Below, in pieces: positions 23,348 through 31,156 of a stretch of 41,137 bases of DNA (its first letter is position 1; each line of letters begins with the position of its first letter). Where the stretch lies: positions 1-41,137 of the forward strand of contig CAKZQO010000297.1 of the NCBI GenBank assembly GCA_937140905.1. The letters run 5' to 3'. This DNA is from an uncultured Spirochaeta sp. Lineage in GTDB: Bacteria; Spirochaetota; Spirochaetia; DTKZ01. Under the pieces are notes generated by a model. It saw only the letters and a program-made list of their open reading frames with translations. It was not told the origin of the DNA and searched no databases. The position numbers were made by a program, and so were the translations under genes.

Positions 23348-24277
23348 TTACTGCGCCTGCAACGTAAACGTGATGATGCAAGAATAATCTCCAGCCGTAG
23401 GGAAGTCCAAAGTGTCCACCGTGAACACGAAGGAGTACCGGACTCCTACGTAGGCAGTGGGAGACGCGCTAGCGGCGACGGTGTAGCTCTGGGCGGGGGT
23501 TAAAGAAATGGGGGTTCCATTCAGGGTTACCCGTAGAGGAACGGTACTCGTGTCCGCAGGGTCCACGATCTGTAGGGCGTTCCCGTACTGGGAAACCATG
23601 GAAAGGGTATAGATTTGATTAGACCGTACCATCAGGTCTACCGCGCGGGTCTTTCCCTCTTCCAGAATTCCGAAATCTAGGGTAGAAGCGGTGGAACCCG
23701 CGCTAAAGGGAGAGCCCGGGGGCACGAGGGATAGTTCCATCACCGCGGGCATGGTGATCCGGACCTGAAACGAGCGCTGAGCTTTCTGAGTATAGGAAGC
23801 AAGCGTCCCCTGATACAGGGTTAGATTGATCGTATCCGTGAAGGTGCCCGCCGGTGGGAACTGTCCCGGAGGGAGAATCACCACAAAGGAGAGATCCTGG
23901 GTGGTCCATCCACTGTCGTCGGGAAAACTTCCCCGAAGCACCTCTTGGGGTGTAGGGTTGGCCGATAGGTCCTTAAGAACGTTTCTAGTATCCGCGGCAT
24001 CGTAAATCTGATATGCCAACACGCCTCCACCTGTCCCAGAGGCCAGACGGGTTTCGAAGGAGCCGGAACTACCGGCGGAAAAAGTGACGAAATACTCTGT
24101 AGGCCCTCCCCGGTGCCGCACGCTAAAAGTGCCGGTCAGCACGAGTTCAGCGTCTAAGGTGTACGTTCCCGTGATTCGATTCGGTACGTTTTGGAACAGT
24201 AACTGCTGGGACCATCCGAGGGCCACACAGAGAGGGAACAAAAAGACCATCAGTAACAAACTCTTACTTCTCGTCAT
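23348..24277 (-). CDS. Chaperone-usher pilus tip/minor subunit, two-domain (SCPU-like)
   Basis: A 309-residue secreted protein with a signal peptide (KSLLLMVFLFPLCVALGWSQ). It is all beta-strand-like. An N-terminal half (about 25-170) is joined to a C-terminal half (about 180-309) whose pattern (ELSLVPP, TLDFGILEEGKTRAVDLMV) resembles the pilin of this operon and the spore-coat-U (SCPU) family. Two-domain subunits in this position normally form the adhesive tip, with the N-terminal domain as receptor binder and the C-terminal domain as donor-complementable pilin. Its start overlaps the usher stop by 14 bp, and it is last in the operon. The tip role is inference. Confidence 0.7.
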   Translation of the reverse strand: MTRSKSLLLMVFLFPLCVALGWSQQLLFQNVPNRITGTYTLDAELVLTGTFSVRHRGGPTEYFVTFSAGSSGSFETRLASGTGGGVLAYQIYDAADTRNVLKDLSANPTPQEVLRGSFPDDSGWTTQDLSFVVILPPGQFPPAGTFTDTINLTLYQGTLASYTQKAQRSFQVRITMPAVMELSLVPPGSPFSAGSTASTLDFGILEEGKTRAVDLMVRSNQIYTLSMVSQYGNALQIVDPADTSTVPLRVTLNGTPISLTPAQSYTVAASASPTAYVGVRYSFVFTVDTLDFPTAGDYSCIITFTLQAQ

Positions 24278-26678
24278 GGTTTACCTCCAGCGTCCCCAAT
24301 GAAACGAACCCAGAGCTCTCCGGTGGAATTCGAATCTTTATGGAAGAATCGATCCCCGCAACTCGAAGTTCGTACTCGCCGGGAACAAGCCCGTACGCTT
24401 GGAACATCCCTGTTTCATCCGTGAAGAACGGTACAGGCGGAACTGCTTCCTTTCCCGCGGGAGCTTGACCTTTCCATGAGATGGTTCCCCCGCGATACGC
24501 GATGGGCGCTCCACTTCTAAATCGTACCGTTCCTTCCACAAACACGGTAGGCTTTGTTCCCGCTCGGATGACAGTTCCACTTCGGTAGCTAGGTCGCAGG
24601 ACCCGGACGTTTTCCCCTACTTCGGATCCGGCCGGAGCTTGGGGCGCGTCTATCAAGAGCTGGGTTTTCTCGTAGGAGTTTAGAAGGAGCAAACCAGGGC
24701 TTTTACTGCTAGCGGGAATGTCGCCACTGCCCGTGCTGCTAACCCAGAGGGTTTCATTCTCCAAGCTTTCAATGGGAACCACGAGGGCGAAACTGTCGTA
24801 AATGGGTTTGGAGAGCGCCCATGTTCCATCGGCATACGCGACTGAGGTTCGTCCCTGCGCGGTAAGACGGCTAGCCACATACTCGGAACTTCCTTTGTAG
24901 AAGGTCTGTATGAGGGATCCTTCGAAGAAGCGGTTGCCGTAGGATCCCCCTGCGCGGAACGAGGCGGGGCGTTCCTTTTCGAGGGGGAATCCTTCCACCA
25001 CTCCATCCACCACCAACGTGCCTTCCCGCACCTCCGGCCGTACCTGCACGCTGGCACTGGCGCTTCCTTCCGAGAGGGAAGAGGTGAAACTTGAAGTTCT
25101 ACGCCCTTCCGGCGAGGTGATGGTGAGGGAGAGGGACCCCCGAGTGTCTAAAGCTCCTGATTCCGAACGGGTTACGCTGACGCTCAACAGGAAGTTGACT
25201 CCCTTCCTTAGGGTCTGGAGAGCCGTCAAGGAAAAGAAGGACTTATTCTCTCCTTCCCGGGCAAACTGGTATGTTCCCGACACCCCAAGACTCAACCCGA
25301 AGGGAAAGGGTTGACTAATCATAGCGCTCAACTCCCAGGAGGGGGGAGAAGAAGCATCCAATGGTTCGAACGCCGTGTGGAACCGGCTTCCCTTATACTG
25401 GGCTCCAAACCCCACCATGGGATAGGTCTTCCGTCCAGGGAAAGAAATCCGGTACTTTAACGAAGCCGCCCAATCTTCCATCGAATACTCCCGAAAGGAC
25501 AAGGCGAAATCCCCCATCAATATTCCAAGTGGTAGCGCGAAAAGTGTTTCGATACCGCCCAATTGTCTAGAGGGGTTTCCCTGTAAGTTCGCGCCAAAGG
25601 TAAACCAGGGATTGAGCCCCCACAGGAACGATCCCTGAACCGTGGGAACGTCCGGATCCCACCGGGGGATTCCCCCTCCCAGGGAATAGGAACCCTCTCC
25701 TTCCGGTTGCATCCTTCCATCGAAGGCCACGAACCGTTCCAGCGTGCGCTCGGGAGTATTCTCCTCTTGAAGGACGATCCGCACGTCGTTCACACCGGTC
25801 ACGTAGGGAAAATTCAACAGTCGATGCCTACCGGGTTCCAACGTCAGGGTTCGAATCAGTTGATCGTTCACGTACACTAAGACCGTTGCCGGCCGTTCCA
25901 GGATTAATTCCTCGCGGCTTAAGGTTCGGTCCTTACGGAAAAGAGAAGCGTCCCGAAGGATCGATATCCCTTCGAGGATAACGGGAGATTGAAACCCCTG
26001 CACCGCGATTCCCAATGTTCCTAGGCTGAGCCGCATGGAATGGTGTTCAAAATCCTTCACCAGGCGTTCGTACTCGAAGGTGAACTCAGGTTCGGGATAC
26101 GTTCCTGCAGATACTCCCGCCTCCAACACCCAACCCTTATAGTTCATCGTGGGAGAAGCGGAAAAGAACAGGGGAACGGTGGTAGGTGTCTTTGCGTACG
26201 GTTCGTACCAGATAGAGGCAGAAGAACTCAAGTTCAAGTATCCGCTAAACTCCTTGGGAAAATCTGTCTCGGCTCTAGTGATGGTAGACTGACCGGATAG
26301 GATGATATCCTGGGATACTCGCAACTCAGGGGGAATCGAGACTCGAAGGGCGAGAAGCTGCCTGTCGAAGGTCATCTCCAGACCCAAAGCCGAAACCCGT
26401 TCTATCTCTACCCATCCCGCCCGCGGCCCTTCTTTGATCCCCTCCCATACTTCTTCCTTTAACCTGCCTTTAAGGAACTTTTTCAACTCTTCCAGGGGGA
26501 GATAGATCTTCCCCTCTTCCGTGATCATTGTTTCTATCTGTCCTACCCGTAATCCTTCCACGGCTAGATCAATGGGAACGCGCAATTCCCGTTCCTGGGC
26601 GCCTCCCCGCTCGAGTGGTAACCCGAAAAGAAGGAGGAGAAGGGGCACCGTTCCGAGGGGATTAGCGAACCGCCTCAT
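24264..26678 (-). CDS. Fimbrial outer-membrane usher (FimD/PapC-like)
   Basis: An 804-residue outer-membrane assembly platform. After a signal peptide (to about residue 27, GGAQE), the N-terminal chaperone-binding domain (LPLEELKKFLKGRLKEEVW) is followed by a beta-barrel region. That region includes the family segment LTLEPGRHRLLNFPYVTGVNDV, and ERTLERFVAFD marks the plug/early barrel. The C-terminal domain (TVRFRSGAPIAYRGG; FFTDETGMFQAYGLVPGEYEL) has the carboxypeptidase-regulatory-like fold seen at usher ends. The length matches the family. It overlaps the chaperone gene by 17 bp and the tip gene by 14 bp, so translation is tightly coupled. Confidence 0.88.
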   Translation of the reverse strand: MRRFANPLGTVPLLLLLFGLPLERGGAQERELRVPIDLAVEGLRVGQIETMITEEGKIYLPLEELKKFLKGRLKEEVWEGIKEGPRAGWVEIERVSALGLEMTFDRQLLALRVSIPPELRVSQDIILSGQSTITRAETDFPKEFSGYLNLSSSASIWYEPYAKTPTTVPLFFSASPTMNYKGWVLEAGVSAGTYPEPEFTFEYERLVKDFEHHSMRLSLGTLGIAVQGFQSPVILEGISILRDASLFRKDRTLSREELILERPATVLVYVNDQLIRTLTLEPGRHRLLNFPYVTGVNDVRIVLQEENTPERTLERFVAFDGRMQPEGEGSYSLGGGIPRWDPDVPTVQGSFLWGLNPWFTFGANLQGNPSRQLGGIETLFALPLGILMGDFALSFREYSMEDWAASLKYRISFPGRKTYPMVGFGAQYKGSRFHTAFEPLDASSPPSWELSAMISQPFPFGLSLGVSGTYQFAREGENKSFFSLTALQTLRKGVNFLLSVSVTRSESGALDTRGSLSLTITSPEGRRTSSFTSSLSEGSASASVQVRPEVREGTLVVDGVVEGFPLEKERPASFRAGGSYGNRFFEGSLIQTFYKGSSEYVASRLTAQGRTSVAYADGTWALSKPIYDSFALVVPIESLENETLWVSSTGSGDIPASSKSPGLLLLNSYEKTQLLIDAPQAPAGSEVGENVRVLRPSYRSGTVIRAGTKPTVFVEGTVRFRSGAPIAYRGGTISWKGQAPAGKEAVPPVPFFTDETGMFQAYGLVPGEYELRVAGIDSSIKIRIPPESSGFVSLGTLEVNHDEK

Positions 26679-27435
26679 ACTGGAAATTCACTTCGAGGGC
26701 GGAAGGATCCACGTCCTGAAGTTCGGGAGGGAGGGGCAAAAAGACAGTCCGTTTGGAACCGGCAAGAAGGTTTTCCCCGGAGATCCCTCGCAAAGAGTCT
26801 CCTTCGAAAACTAGTTTCCTTCCAATGGCCGAAACTTCGATCGTTAAATCCCCTAGGATGGTATGGGCTGTACCCTGGTTCTGGAATACCAGGAAGATCC
26901 CTTTCCTTCCTTCCTTGTCAGTACCCACGGAAGTTTGGATGATCCGGACTTCGGCCTTCGCGTGAGAGGGCAACACGTACAGGGAGCCTAGATACCGGGT
27001 AAGGATTCGTATGGATCCCCCCGCTCGTTTATTCTCGCCGAAATCCACGGGGAGTTGTTCCACTAGAAGCCGGAAAGCCAACTCTTGGGAAGGATTGGCG
27101 TCCCCTTTCCATTGGACCCGCACCAGTTGAATGCCCTTTGGTCCAATCACTACCCTAGAGGGATACACGGTGAACAGTTCATCGGCAGGGGAGTTGACTT
27201 CCCACCCTTCCCTATCCTCTGTCCGGGTTAGGATCCGTATACGTACCGCGATGGATTCCGTGTAAGAATTGGACAATCGAAGAGTGACTACCGATCTAGG
27301 CCCTGAGGGCTCCAAATCCGCGGTGATCGGCTCGAGGTTGAACGCGGAAAGGGGAAGGCTCACGGCAATCCATAGGATTACCGCCACAAACCATCGCTTC
27401 CCGGCTTTTCCGCTATTCCCCCGCAAGAGCCTCAT
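26662..27435 (-). CDS. PapD-like periplasmic pilus chaperone
   Basis: A 257-residue chaperone that would cap pilin subunits by donor-strand complementation and deliver them to the usher. A signal peptide (VAVILWIAVSLPLSAF) is followed by a first Ig domain with the G1-strand motif FTVYPSRVVIGPKGIQLVRVQW and ELAFRLLVEQLPV. The second Ig domain contains GIFLVFQNQGTAHTILGDL. This matches archaic (Csu-type) chaperones better than classical FimC, by motif recall. Its ATG overlaps the pilin stop (ATGA). Confidence 0.85.
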   Translation of the reverse strand: MRLLRGNSGKAGKRWFVAVILWIAVSLPLSAFNLEPITADLEPSGPRSVVTLRLSNSYTESIAVRIRILTRTEDREGWEVNSPADELFTVYPSRVVIGPKGIQLVRVQWKGDANPSQELAFRLLVEQLPVDFGENKRAGGSIRILTRYLGSLYVLPSHAKAEVRIIQTSVGTDKEGRKGIFLVFQNQGTAHTILGDLTIEVSAIGRKLVFEGDSLRGISGENLLAGSKRTVFLPLPPELQDVDPSALEVNFQYEAVR

Positions 27436-27932
27436 TTCGCCGTGATGGTAAACGTCAGAGTGTCGCTATAGGAGTCTTCGTACAGGAAAGCGCCCGTGTA
27501 GGAGACTCTAACCTCCCTCGACTCCCCCGCTCCCGTGGTTCGCGTGTTGGAATCGGTGACGATCGCGGATCCCGAGCTGAAGGTAACCGTCGTACCTCCA
27601 TACGTGAGGGCATAGGAGAGGGTGTCCGCATTTCCCGGGTCGGTACTCTTGAAATAGGGCTGCGTAGCGCCACTCGAAACCGCGTTGAGGGATTCCACCG
27701 AAACCGTGTATCCACCCTTCTTGTTGCTCCGTTCCACTACCGTTGCCACGGCCGTATTGGTGTCTACCGACAAGTCCAAAGCGGAAGCGGCGGGCAGAGA
27801 CGATACCGTAATGCTAAGGATGGGCGGCACCGTGCCCGTCAAGGTGAGGGTTCCCGATGTCTGCGCGATCAAGGGAAGGGAAGCGAAGATTGCCACGATT
27901 AACGAAAAGAGAAACACTTTCTTTCTATTCAT
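27432..27932 (-). CDS. Major pilin subunit of chaperone-usher pilus
   Basis: A 166-residue secreted subunit. The signal peptide MNRKKVFLFSLIVAIFASLPLIAQ is followed by TSGTLTLTGTVPPILSITV and an all-beta Ser/Thr/Gly-rich body ending SDTLTFTITAK. The alternating hydrophobic C-terminal strand is as expected for donor-strand exchange. I prefer ATG 27932 (AGGAGG 9 nt upstream); an upstream in-frame ATG at 27998 would precede the signal peptide and overlap the regulator. There is no cysteine. It is the first gene of the operon, so it should be the most abundant subunit. A TATAAT-like box (TATATATAATAG) precedes it; no -24/-12 element is seen there. Confidence 0.75.
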   Translation of the reverse strand: MNRKKVFLFSLIVAIFASLPLIAQTSGTLTLTGTVPPILSITVSSLPAASALDLSVDTNTAVATVVERSNKKGGYTVSVESLNAVSSGATQPYFKSTDPGNADTLSYALTYGGTTVTFSSGSAIVTDSNTRTTGAGESREVRVSYTGAFLYEDSYSDTLTFTITAK

Positions 27933-27994: not shown

Positions 27995-29629
27995 TCATTC
28001 CTGCGCTTCGTCTTTTTCTAATAGATCCGGGAATCGCTCCTTCAGGGCCTTTCGGAAGGCCGGAGGATTGATCCCTAACAACAGAGCCGCTTTTTCCCGA
28101 TTCCCTCCCGTCTTTCGCAACGCCTGTTCGTAGTAGGACCGCTCCGCCTGGTACAGGAAAGCTCGCAGGTCCATCCCTTCCTCAGGGATCTGGGTGCGGA
28201 ATGCGAACCGATCGGAGGGGGTCGTCAGAGTCCCGCGAAGGGGCGGAGGCAGGTGTTCTGGTTTCAGTTCCTCCCCCCGGGAAGAAGCGCAGAGGGCGAT
28301 GATGGTGTTCTGGAGTTCCCGGACATTTCCCGGCCAGTGATACGAGTAGAAAAGATCCAATACTTCCTTTGAGAGGAACTTGTTTTCCTTGTACTTTTGG
28401 TTCCATTCTTCCACGAACCTCTTGGCCAGGAGAGAGATGTCTGATTTCCGTTCCCGCAGGGGCGGCAGATGAATGGTTACCTGGTTCAGCCGATCGTACA
28501 GGTCCCTCCGAAAGGTCCCCTTTTCCAGCATGGCCTCGAGGTCCCGGTTCGTGGCGGCCAACACCCGCACATCGATTCGGTATTCCTGTTCCGAGCCCAC
28601 GGGGTGTACCGTTCTCTCTTGCAGAACTCGTAATAGCTTTGGCTGTACTTCTAACGGTAAGTCTCCCACCTCATCCAAAAGGATCGTTCCTCCATCGGCG
28701 GCCCGGAACTTTCCCGTCCGATCCCGGGTAGCGCCGGTAAAAGCCCCCCGCGCGTGACCAAAGAGTTCGCTTTCCACGAGGCTAGGGGTAAGGGCGGAGC
28801 AGTTGATCGCCACGAAGGGTTTGTTCTTCCTTGGGCTCCTTGCGTGGATCAGACGAGCGATAAGTTCCTTACCCGTGCCCGGCTCTCCCCGGAGAATCAC
28901 GGACACGTCGGAGTACCGGGCAACGGTGAGGGCTTTATTCAGGGCTTCCCGAAATGTGGCCGAAGTATTCGATTCCAGCAACGACCGAACGTCCGGCTGT
29001 AAAGACAGACCCTCTCGTAGCTCTTCTTCCTGTTCTTCAAGAACCCGGGAGCCGTTATAGACAGGGCCTAAGGGCAGTACTCGCGGAAGGGTCATTTGGC
29101 TGAGTGCGATCTCCCGCACCCGGTAGGAGCCTCCTCCGAAACGGGGGGGGATCCCCTGCAGGAGGGTGGCGCGCAGGTCCCCGGAGCGGGCAAGAAGGAA
29201 CCAACAGGTTTGCATCTGCGGGGTCCCAGGGTCCAATAGCACGTAGAGATCCCTGTCGGTGTCGGGTATGCCTCGCCCACCCACCACCTGAAGTGTCCTT
29301 AAAGCGGCGGAGAGTTTCTTGTAGATCTCCTCATAGTCTATCACCGAATCCAACTCTAGAAGGTGATGGGTAAAGTTGCACTTCTTCCCCCACTGCCGGA
29401 ACACATGCTCCACACCCAACGCCCGTTCCAGGTAGGCTGGCCCCGTGCAAAAAAGGATCACTTCATTAAATGCGCGAACGGATAAAAGAGAGAGCACGGG
29501 TCCGTACGGCTCATCCCGGGATTCCCAGTCCTGGGATTCGGATCCATTGGCGTCGTTGTACGGGTCCCGGTTCCCCACGAAACTAAGTAGCACGGTCCGA
29601 TACTTCTTATCTTTTCCCACGAACTTCAT
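27995..29629 (-). CDS. RtcR-like sigma-54 activator with N-terminal CARF-type sensor domain
   Basis: A 544-residue bacterial enhancer-binding protein. Residues about 11-180 resemble the CARF domain of RtcR: VLLSFVGNRDPY near the start, then DPGTPQMQTCWFLLARSG (133-150) and LLQGIPPRF, paralleling RtcR GT..xQxCWFLLA...Q..PP. The sigma-54 AAA+ domain has Walker A GEPGTGKE (248-255), the sigma-54 contact loop GAFTGA (295-300) and Walker B ILLDE (316-320). A Fis-type helix-turn-helix ends the protein (GNREKAALLLGINPPAFRKAL). CARF domains bind cyclic oligoadenylate or related RNA-derived nucleotides. RtcR controls rtcAB RNA repair, but no rtcA or rtcB is present here. ATG 29629 lacks a good ribosome binding site. 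It lies directly upstream of the pilus operon and diverges from a sigma-54 promoter. Confidence 0.88.
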   Translation of the reverse strand: MKFVGKDKKYRTVLLSFVGNRDPYNDANGSESQDWESRDEPYGPVLSLLSVRAFNEVILFCTGPAYLERALGVEHVFRQWGKKCNFTHHLLELDSVIDYEEIYKKLSAALRTLQVVGGRGIPDTDRDLYVLLDPGTPQMQTCWFLLARSGDLRATLLQGIPPRFGGGSYRVREIALSQMTLPRVLPLGPVYNGSRVLEEQEEELREGLSLQPDVRSLLESNTSATFREALNKALTVARYSDVSVILRGEPGTGKELIARLIHARSPRKNKPFVAINCSALTPSLVESELFGHARGAFTGATRDRTGKFRAADGGTILLDEVGDLPLEVQPKLLRVLQERTVHPVGSEQEYRIDVRVLAATNRDLEAMLEKGTFRRDLYDRLNQVTIHLPPLRERKSDISLLAKRFVEEWNQKYKENKFLSKEVLDLFYSYHWPGNVRELQNTIIALCASSRGEELKPEHLPPPLRGTLTTPSDRFAFRTQIPEEGMDLRAFLYQAERSYYEQALRKTGGNREKAALLLGINPPAFRKALKERFPDLLEKDEAQE

Positions 29630-29651
29630 TATAGGGAATAACCAAAGTTTT

Positions 29652-29681
29652 CTCCATACGAAACCCGAGTTTCGAATGGAG
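29652..29681. promoter_or_regulatory. 30-bp dyad, candidate enhancer (UAS) for the CARF/sigma-54 activator
   Basis: Arms CTCCAT-a-CGAAAC and GTTTCG-a-ATGGAG flank a 4-bp CCGA centre; only one position per arm is unpaired. The centre lies about 82 bp upstream of the GG of the -24 element and 37 bp upstream of the activator start codon, the usual distance for a sigma-54 enhancer site. A smaller repeat ATTCATT-N7-AATGAAT (29709-29729) lies between it and the promoter. An RNA hairpin in the activator leader is an alternative reading. Confidence 0.7.
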
Positions 29682-29746
29682 CGTAGACGCTGAACAGCAT
29701 TGGTTCCTATTCATTACAATACAATGAATTATCAATACAGCTTCCT

Positions 29747-29762
29747 TGGCACACAGTTTGCT
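29747..29762 (+). promoter_or_regulatory. Consensus sigma-54 (-24/-12) promoter
   Basis: TGGCACACAGTTTGCT fits the TGGCACR-N4-TTGCW consensus at every fixed position, with exactly 10 bp between GG and GC. Transcription should start near 29773, giving a leader of about 30 nt for the PEGA lipoprotein gene. Confidence 0.88.
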
Positions 29763-29801
29763 ATATTCTTCCTTAAACTCATTGTGTTAGAGGGAGGATC
29801 T

Positions 29802-30221
29802 ATGAAGCACACTACTATCGTCACAAAAGCCACTGGCGGATTGGCCTTGGCGTTCGCGATGGGGATTCTGTCCCTTCTGTTTTTCGCCGGCTGCGCCACC
29901 CTGTTCAAAGGCACCTCTCAGAAAGTAGGCTACAGTTCCGATCCTTCGGGCGCCAAGGTGTACGTGAACGGCCAGCTTGTGGGGACTACCCCGTTCGAAC
30001 TGGAAATGAAGGCGAACCGAACTTACACCATCGAGTTCCGGAAGGAAGGGTATGAGAACAAGACTGTGGTGTTGAACAACTCTATCGGCGCGGGCTGGAT
30101 TATCCTCGACGTGCTGGGTGGCTTTATACCGGTTATCATAGACGCCGCCACCGGTGCCTGGTATTCCCTAGACCAGGATCACGTGAACGCGGCCTTAGAA
30201 GCGCAGAAAGCGGGTAAATAA
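29802..30221 (+). CDS. PEGA-domain lipoprotein
   Basis: A 139-residue lipoprotein. The signal peptide ends with the lipobox LFFAGC, so it is lipidated and sits at a membrane. The PEGA domain reads SDPSGAKVYVNGQLVGTTPF, then YTIEFRKEGYENKTVVL. A hydrophobic tail segment (GWIILDVLGGFIPVIIDAATG) is common in small PEGA lipoproteins. ATG 29802 (GGGAGG about 6 nt upstream) is preferred to an in-frame ATG at 29700 that lies upstream of the sigma-54 promoter. PEGA domains are surface beta-modules of unclear function. It is monocistronic, between a perfect -24/-12 promoter and a strong terminator. Confidence 0.88.
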   Translation: MKHTTIVTKATGGLALAFAMGILSLLFFAGCATLFKGTSQKVGYSSDPSGAKVYVNGQLVGTTPFELEMKANRTYTIEFRKEGYENKTVVLNNSIGAGWIILDVLGGFIPVIIDAATGAWYSLDQDHVNAALEAQKAGK

Positions 30222-30224
30222 GTT

Positions 30225-30259
30225 AAAAGGGGGGCACTCTAAGGAGGGCCCCCCTTTTT
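30225..30259 (+). terminator. Rho-independent terminator of the PEGA lipoprotein gene
   Basis: AAAAGGGGGGC (30225-30235) pairs with GCCCCCCTTTT (30248-30258), followed by T. It is a strong GC stem with A and U tracts on either side and may work on both strands. Confidence 0.9.
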
Positions 30260-30286
30260 AGCTTGACTCCACGGCTCCGCTTTCCT

Positions 30287-31156
30287 ATGCTGAACATGAT
30301 GGGGTTAGAATTGGATACTCTAATTAAGCGGTTACAGTCTTATTTCGCAGGCCGAAGGGATGTGGCTTTCGCGTTTCTCTTTGGCTCCTACGCGAAAGGA
30401 CTCCAACGAGACGTTTCCGACTTAGATGTAGGGGTATATTTCTTTCCAAAAGGCGAACTCTGGGAATTGGAGGAGGACATAGAGTATCCCGAGGAAACGA
30501 ACATTTGGGGGGATATAGACGCTCTTGCTGGAAAAGAGATCGATCTTATTGTCCTGAATAGGGCATCTGCCCGGCTCGTATACACTATCCTTACGGAAGG
30601 AGTTCCACTTGTTGTCCATTCTCCCTCTCTCTGTTGGAAAATCCTCCTGCAGGCTGGCCGACTGGTGGAAGAATACCTTGATTTCACCGTCTCTTATATA
30701 GAAGTAAAGAATCGTTCAACTTCCCTTTCCGCCTTGGATAAAGAGCGAATCATCAGGATCCTTGACTTTCTGAAATCTGAACTTCGGGATGCTCCCCAAT
30801 TCGTCTCCATCACGTATGAAGAGTATACAATTCAACCATCCCTTCGAAGAAACCTGGAACGGTGGGTGGAAAATTTGGTAAACGCTTCCCTCGATATCGC
30901 TAAGATCCTCCTAGCTTCTGAAAAACAACCCCTTCCCCAGACCTATCGGGAAACCCTCAAACGGTTACAAACCCTGCCGGGGTTCCAAGGGGAATGGGCG
31001 GAAAAATTGGCCGATAATACTCGGCTTCGCAATATCCTGGCTCACGAATATCTTGACATTCGTTTCCGTTATCTAGTTGAGTTCGCTTCTAGCGCTGAAA
31101 TGGTTTATTCAAAATTAATGGAAGCGGCGCATCAATTCGTATATCATCAGGATTAG
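30287..31156 (+). CDS. Single-chain MNT-HepT fusion (nucleotidyltransferase antitoxin + HEPN toxin)
   Basis: A 290-residue protein (counted from ATG 30287) joining two domains usually encoded by separate toxin-antitoxin genes. The N-terminal minimal nucleotidyltransferase has the exact GS-X10-DXD motif (GSYAKGLQRDVSDLD, about 33-47) and a third acidic residue in KEIDLIVLN. The C-terminal HepT/DUF86 domain carries RNILAHEY (248-255), exactly the RX4HXY HEPN RNase motif. In separate MNT/HepT pairs the antitoxin AMPylates that tyrosine and silences the RNase. The start is uncertain: TTG 30263 and ATG 30296/30299 are also possible, and none has a clear ribosome binding site. It follows the lipoprotein terminator. 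Confidence 0.85.
   Translation: MLNMMGLELDTLIKRLQSYFAGRRDVAFAFLFGSYAKGLQRDVSDLDVGVYFFPKGELWELEEDIEYPEETNIWGDIDALAGKEIDLIVLNRASARLVYTILTEGVPLVVHSPSLCWKILLQAGRLVEEYLDFTVSYIEVKNRSTSLSALDKERIIRILDFLKSELRDAPQFVSITYEEYTIQPSLRRNLERWVENLVNASLDIAKILLASEKQPLPQTYRETLKRLQTLPGFQGEWAEKLADNTRLRNILAHEYLDIRFRYLVEFASSAEMVYSKLMEAAHQFVYHQD

Follow-up and report, generated by a model that had tools for sequence, protein, structure and literature searches.

The window, by which we mean the whole stretch of 41,137 nucleotides analysed, contains a gene for a σ54-dependent activator with a CARF sensor domain, a divergent PEGA-domain lipoprotein gene, a σ54 promoter and enhancer sites between the two, and a set of pilus-like genes behind the activator (Table 1). 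Among the latter, the 804-aa protein gave no PDB or Pfam match marking it as an usher. The PEGA gene is followed by a probable terminator and would thus form a single-gene transcript. Beyond it, at 30263-31156 on the forward strand, one ORF fuses an MntA-like nucleotidyltransferase to a HepT-like HEPN RNase, with NCBIfam scores around the cutoffs. This ORF, which was not seen at the corresponding place in the related genome G002, would represent a fused type VII toxin-antitoxin located between the PEGA gene and a TRAP transporter.

Table 1. Features of the activator locus, in window coordinates.
Feature	Position	Strand	Remarks
Pilus-like genes, co-directional, downstream of activator	23348..27932	-	
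SCPU protein	23348-24277	-	
804-aa protein without family	24264-26678	-	usher position
PapD-like chaperone	26662-27435	-	
Small secreted protein	27432-27932	-	
CARF-AAA+-HTH σ54-dependent activator, RtcR_PspF2 class	27995..29620	-	probable GTG start; ORF as listed reaches ATG 29629
Fis-type HTH (HTH_8), residues 494-531	28037..28150	-	
σ54-interacting AAA+ domain and lid, residues 223-467	28229..28963	-	GAFTGA motif
CARF sensor domain, ~residues 11-180	29090..29600	-	FVGNRDPY, DYEEIY, DPGTPQMQTCWFLL, LLQGIPPRF; Pfam RtcR, PADLOC CARF models, AlphaFold2, Foldseek
Putative σ70 promoter of activator	29628..29656	-	-35 TGGAGA 29656-29651, 17-bp spacer, -10 TATAAT 29633-29628; overlaps enhancer site 2
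Enhancer site 2, ATAACCAAAGTTTT	29638..29651		22 bp from site 1; centre ~-128
30-bp dyad	29652..29681		13-nt arms 29652-29664 / 29669-29681, 92% complementary
Enhancer site 1, GNAAC-N4-GTTNC, GAAACCCGAGTTTC	29660..29673		core of dyad; centre ~-106 from predicted PEGA start
σ54 (-24/-12) promoter of PEGA gene, TGGCACACAGTTTGCT	29747..29762	+	
Predicted PEGA transcription start	~29773		
PEGA-domain lipoprotein, predicted σ54 target, 139 aa	29802..30221	+	PEGA domain 1.1e-10, lipobox FAGC; divergent from activator
Inverted repeat then T-run, probable terminator	30225..30258	+	

In profile searches the σ54 AAA+ domain of the activator scored 220 bits, and the full-length protein matched the PADLOC model RtcR_PspF2--CARF_AAA_HTH over residues 12-530 (417.5 bits, E = 2.3e-125). 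Pfam RtcR was matched at residues 81-178, with 23.6 bits for the full-length protein against a cutoff of 23.1 and with 26.3 bits when the N-terminal 213 residues were searched alone; the score against the RtcR equivalog of NCBIfam, NF038308, was 309.9 bits, below its cutoff of 650. GAFTGA and TPQMQTCWFLLARSGDLRATLLQGIPPRF are both present in the activator sequence. The AlphaFold2 model of the N-terminus has a six-stranded Rossmann-like CARF core with a β5-β6 hairpin (mean pLDDT 83), and its best PDB matches by Foldseek were Csm6 bound to cyclic hexa-adenylate (cA6), then Cam1 and ring nucleases. The alignment of 26 orthologous N-termini displays the motifs FVGNRDPY, DYEEIY, LLDPGTPQMQT.WFLL and LLQGIPPRF. 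A profile of orthologue N-termini, probed against the PDB, found Csm6 (6tug, E = 3.4e-6), with which it shares GNxDP and GTPQM, the resemblance being in strand 1 and strand 4. Judged from sequence and model together, residues ~11-185 are a CARF domain.

The activator also bears the marks of a σ54-dependent enhancer-binding protein, namely a AAA+ domain with GAFTGA, a Fis-type HTH, RpoN in the same genome and an enhancer before a -24/-12 promoter. An earlier note on this DNA had proposed that a σ54 activator located away from rtcAB carries a CARF-type sensor, and had made the proposal depend beforehand on a σ54 gene in the genome, which the RpoN gene provides. The fold and the RtcR_PspF2 match agree with that proposal, as does the absence of rtcAB beside the activator, whose neighbours are the PEGA and pilus-like genes; in a search for RtcB, the only one of this genome was located on another contig (C83).

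The activator probably starts at GTG 29620 and not at ATG 29629, given that the σ70-type -10 element overlaps the ATG and that the orthologues compared (G002 and G003, genus mates of the window) begin at the position equivalent to the GTG. The σ70-like promoter is kept in both, within a near-invariant block. As the start codon lies 7-9 bases past the -10, the messenger of the activator is predicted to be near-leaderless, and since the promoter overlaps enhancer site 2, autorepression of the activator appears likely.

The -24/-12 element facing the PEGA gene is an exact match to TGGCAYRNNNNTTGCW; in the whole 41 kb window, 0.57 matches with one mismatch or fewer would be expected. Upstream of it, the earlier note had seen the 30-bp dyad as the enhancer and had looked to its conservation in relatives. 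What is conserved is the 14-bp core, which G002 and G003 retain within a tandem pair of sites. The longer arms are not, as the outer half of the dyad, away from the activator gene, is not preserved in either genome, and we rejected the whole palindrome as the conserved unit. Site 2 of the window is two positions off the consensus. Beyond the activator promoter, near matches to the conserved half of the dyad in the genus genomes are weak.

Orthologues of the activator were found at E <= 1e-95 in 27 of the 395 genomes sampled from the spirochaete class, and two more came from the phylum sample. The activators of G002 and G003 are 71% and 69% identical to that of the window, respectively. G002 has a divergent PEGA orthologue (83% identical) and keeps the σ54 site, as TGGCATACTTATTGCT, with its spacing to the enhancer unchanged from the window. 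In G003 the activator is kept but another gene lies upstream of it, and G001 lacks activator and PEGA gene alike (each of these two genomes is 79% complete); the PEGA partner occurs in only two of the four genus genomes, the window and G002. Across the class, the 400-bp regions preceding 25 orthologues contain 21 σ54 sites that deviate from the consensus at one position or none, distributed over 16 loci, versus 0.19 expected from dinucleotide shuffles, and several loci have one such site toward the divergent gene and another toward the activator. A search for short dyads shared by the upstream regions of the orthologues returned GTAAC-N4-GTTAC. When one mismatch is allowed, G[TA]AAC-N4-GTT[AT]C occurs 26 times, in 19 of 26 loci, versus 0.9 expected from base shuffles; the excess is found at a gap of 4 only, other gaps being near expectation. 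Tandem pairs with sites 20-23 bp apart, whose consensus is G-N-AAC-N4-GTT-N-C, number 17 versus 0.11 expected.

The spacing is repeated as well. In seven genomes (the window, G002, G018, G300, G380, G295 and G193) one site lies 106-109 bp before the predicted σ54 start, and five of these have a second site at -128 to -130. At other loci the distance from enhancer to start varies from 65 to 192 bp (G061, G235, G201, G157 and G247 depart from -107). Within 500 bp, no good σ54 site accompanies the enhancer-like sites of L038, L073, L077, L078, L080 and L081; L070, where the contig is cut, has a σ54 site without an enhancer, and L069 has neither. Of all the evidence that sensor, enhancer and promoter belong to a single device, the spacing repeated across families is the strongest. 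The occurrence of enhancer and σ54 promoter upstream of orthologues throughout the class bears out the expectation of the earlier note that the circuit would be conserved, and the perfect -24/-12 site, the enhancer and the spacing support its view that the divergent lipoprotein gene would be controlled through a σ54 promoter and an upstream enhancer.

The genes faced by the σ54 sites vary among relatives (we assigned signal peptides, lipoboxes and membrane segments by visual inspection). They encode the PEGA lipoprotein in the window and G002, a Borrelia P13-family membrane protein plus a lipoprotein in G380, a secreted protein plus a lipoprotein in G300, a secreted protein with hydrophobic stretches in G193, β-barrel outer-membrane proteins in G157 and G247, WYL/transglutaminase-like proteins with a hydrophobic segment in G201, G235, G295 and G061, and a type III-A CRISPR operon with Cad1 and Csx1 in G018. 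In this last case cas6 begins 295 bp past the σ54 site and a σ70-like promoter, recognized by eye, lies in between, which makes control of the cas genes by the σ54 switch plausible. The activator adjoins type III loci also in G380 (III-B, with Cad1 and CARF7) and G300 (Cas6 and CARF7). As G018 is placed apart from G300 and G380 in the activator tree, the activator was probably linked to type III CRISPR on two or more occasions.

Several further observations were made around these activators. The CARF-adenosine deaminases of the Cad1 type are encoded next to the CARF-σ54 activator at L105 9674-11746 (G380) and L107 15791-17995 (G018). A second perfect enhancer pair is found between the CARF7 gene and cas6 of G300 (L074 11934-11969), with no recognizable σ54 site beside it, and a perfect σ54 consensus (TGGCATAGAATTTGCT, L105 12947-12962) lies inside the CARF7 gene of G380, 165 bp before cas6 and without an enhancer pair. 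A membrane transglutaminase-like protein and a membrane coiled-coil protein form a recurrent pair next to activators of several families (L072 3769-6041, L080, L076 and L069). An AbiE-type toxin-antitoxin (L075 4941-6139, G180) and the PLD-nuclease/helicase candidate defence cluster PDC-M27B (L063 2629-9303, G043) were also detected beside activators.

The CARF fold, the σ54 promoter, the enhancer, their spacing and their conservation, all of them read from sequence, make it very probable that the locus is a one-component envelope-response switch, a confidence that covers the circuit and excludes the ligand. In the resting cell, the CARF domain would keep the AAA+ domain inactive. On binding an RNA-derived ligand the activator would assemble on the tandem sites (29638-29673) and loop to σ54-RNA polymerase at 29747, whereupon the divergent PEGA gene would be transcribed; we infer this binding and the control by ligand, like the autorepression, from the arrangement described. 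By binding over its own σ70 promoter the activator would probably restrain expression of its own gene and of the pilus-like genes behind it. In relatives, sensor, enhancer and σ54 promoter would remain constant and the output gene would be swapped, usually for one encoding a membrane, secreted or outer-membrane protein.

As to the ligand, our preferred guess, made by analogy and with somewhat less than even confidence, would be an RNA end such as a 2',3'-cyclic phosphate. All 26 orthologue N-termini match Pfam RtcR (seven of them match Csm6-CARF additionally), tRNA fragments ending in a cyclic phosphate are bound by the CARF domain of Salmonella RtcR (PMC7790460), and the window's genome encodes RtcB as well as the HepT-type RNase at 30263-31156. 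However, RtcB is missing from 12 of the 26 orthologue-bearing genomes, the strand-1 and strand-4 motifs are like those of Csm6, and there is no adjacent RtcAB partner, which E. coli RtcR requires (PMC9650030).

That the CARF domain senses cyclic oligoadenylate from type III CRISPR Cas10, the switch being a branch of CRISPR immunity, is unlikely, despite the closeness of its profile and model to cA6-bound Csm6, the shared GNxDP and GTPQM motifs and the position of the activator beside type III loci on two separate branches of its tree. Our searches of the window's genome (G000, 98% complete) found neither a Csm1/Cmr2-like Cas10 nor a SMODS nucleotidyltransferase (CD-NTase), and oligoadenylates fail to activate RtcR of E. 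coli (PMC9650030); an oligoadenylate signal, as suggested by the earlier note, is therefore not supported in the window organism. An ancillary CARF protein of type III CRISPR would be accompanied by a Cas10 in the same genome; no Csm1 or Cmr2 was found in G000, and Cas10 is encoded beside the orthologues of G018 and G380. Among the orthologue-bearing genomes searched, Csm1-type Cas10 exceeded the cut-off only in G002 and G018, and Cmr2 in none (the type III-B locus of G380 was recognized from the neighbourhood of the activator). Csm1 matches of 22-43 bits in many genomes were rejected as Cas10, being mostly restricted to the first 150 profile positions and to ORFs of ~515 aa, and were read as an RNase Y-like HD protein. 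In G018 and G380 an oligoadenylate signal is plausible.

We also find it improbable that PEGA is a secondary target of an enhancer devoted chiefly to autoregulation and to the pilus-like genes. The enhancer does overlap the σ70 promoter that transcribes the activator, a σ54 site directed at the activator gene was seen in several relatives, and the pilus-like genes lie behind the activator, co-directional with it, both in the window and, in the same order, in G003; but no σ54 site facing these genes was found in the window, and the perfect site that is present faces PEGA and is kept in G002. Control of the pilus-like genes by the switch, which the earlier note had raised as an eventuality, is possible, judging solely from gene order. 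A service of the PEGA promoter by another σ54 activator, of which the genome encodes at least ten more, its neighbourhood with the CARF activator being incidental, is very improbable, given that the enhancer pair and its spacing to the σ54 promoter travel with the CARF activator across the class and that the 99 kb surrounding 27 other σ54-activator loci contain no tandem pair.

The class of regulator itself has been known for a decade. RtcR-like CARF activators outside rtc operons were described near restriction-modification systems (Makarova 2014, PMC4012209) and RtcR homologues with CoCoNuTs (PMC11090510), and PADLOC holds the RtcR_PspF2 model, so that the earlier note overstated the novelty of such an activator; new are the envelope protein as output and the enhancer code that relatives conserve. 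In the literature searched, we found no defined DNA site, enhancer, σ54 promoter or envelope target for RtcR-like CARF activators outside rtc operons. The activator shares domain order, full-length sequence and the lack of rtc neighbours with the RtcR_PspF (CARF-AAA-HTH) group (PADLOC PDLC01995), which was described beside restriction-modification, whereas the window locus has an envelope lipoprotein as output and a defined enhancer and promoter code. With RtcR of E. coli and Salmonella it has in common the CARF, AAA+ and HTH domains, and the divergent σ54 promoter for the target and σ70 promoter for the activator are arranged as in rtcR/rsr (PMC9879122); it differs in its NF038308 score, in the lack of an rtcBA target and in CARF motifs nearer to Csm6. 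The RtcR homologues of Type II CoCoNuTs (PMC11090510) likewise head non-rtc loci, but their targets are restriction and RNA-targeting defence genes in the same direction rather than a divergent envelope gene. Csa3 and CalpL-CalpT-CalpS (CARF or SAVED; PMC9704534, PMC11229360) also couple a nucleotide-sensing domain to gene expression, Csa3 as a CARF-HTH protein and CalpL by freeing a sigma factor through proteolysis, and neither involves σ54 looping. PspF is a σ54 AAA+ activator with an envelope-related output (compared in PMC4012209) but has no CARF sensor.

The enhancer code and the -107/-129 geometry make targets predictable from sequence and open the question of the ligand to a reporter test. 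Membrane effectors under direct CARF control, Cam1 for example, have already been described (PMC10808066); recurrent envelope outputs would add transcriptional envelope remodelling to the processes under CARF control. With rather low confidence, we suggest that spirochaetes may possess an envelope response driven by nucleotide or RNA signals, built on a single CARF-σ54 switch whose enhancer code is fixed and whose membrane-protein outputs are exchangeable. Twice this switch would have become linked to type III CRISPR, where oligoadenylate would drive it as a σ54 activator. If true, this would be a further route from the CRISPR alarm to transcription, besides Csa3 and CalpL.
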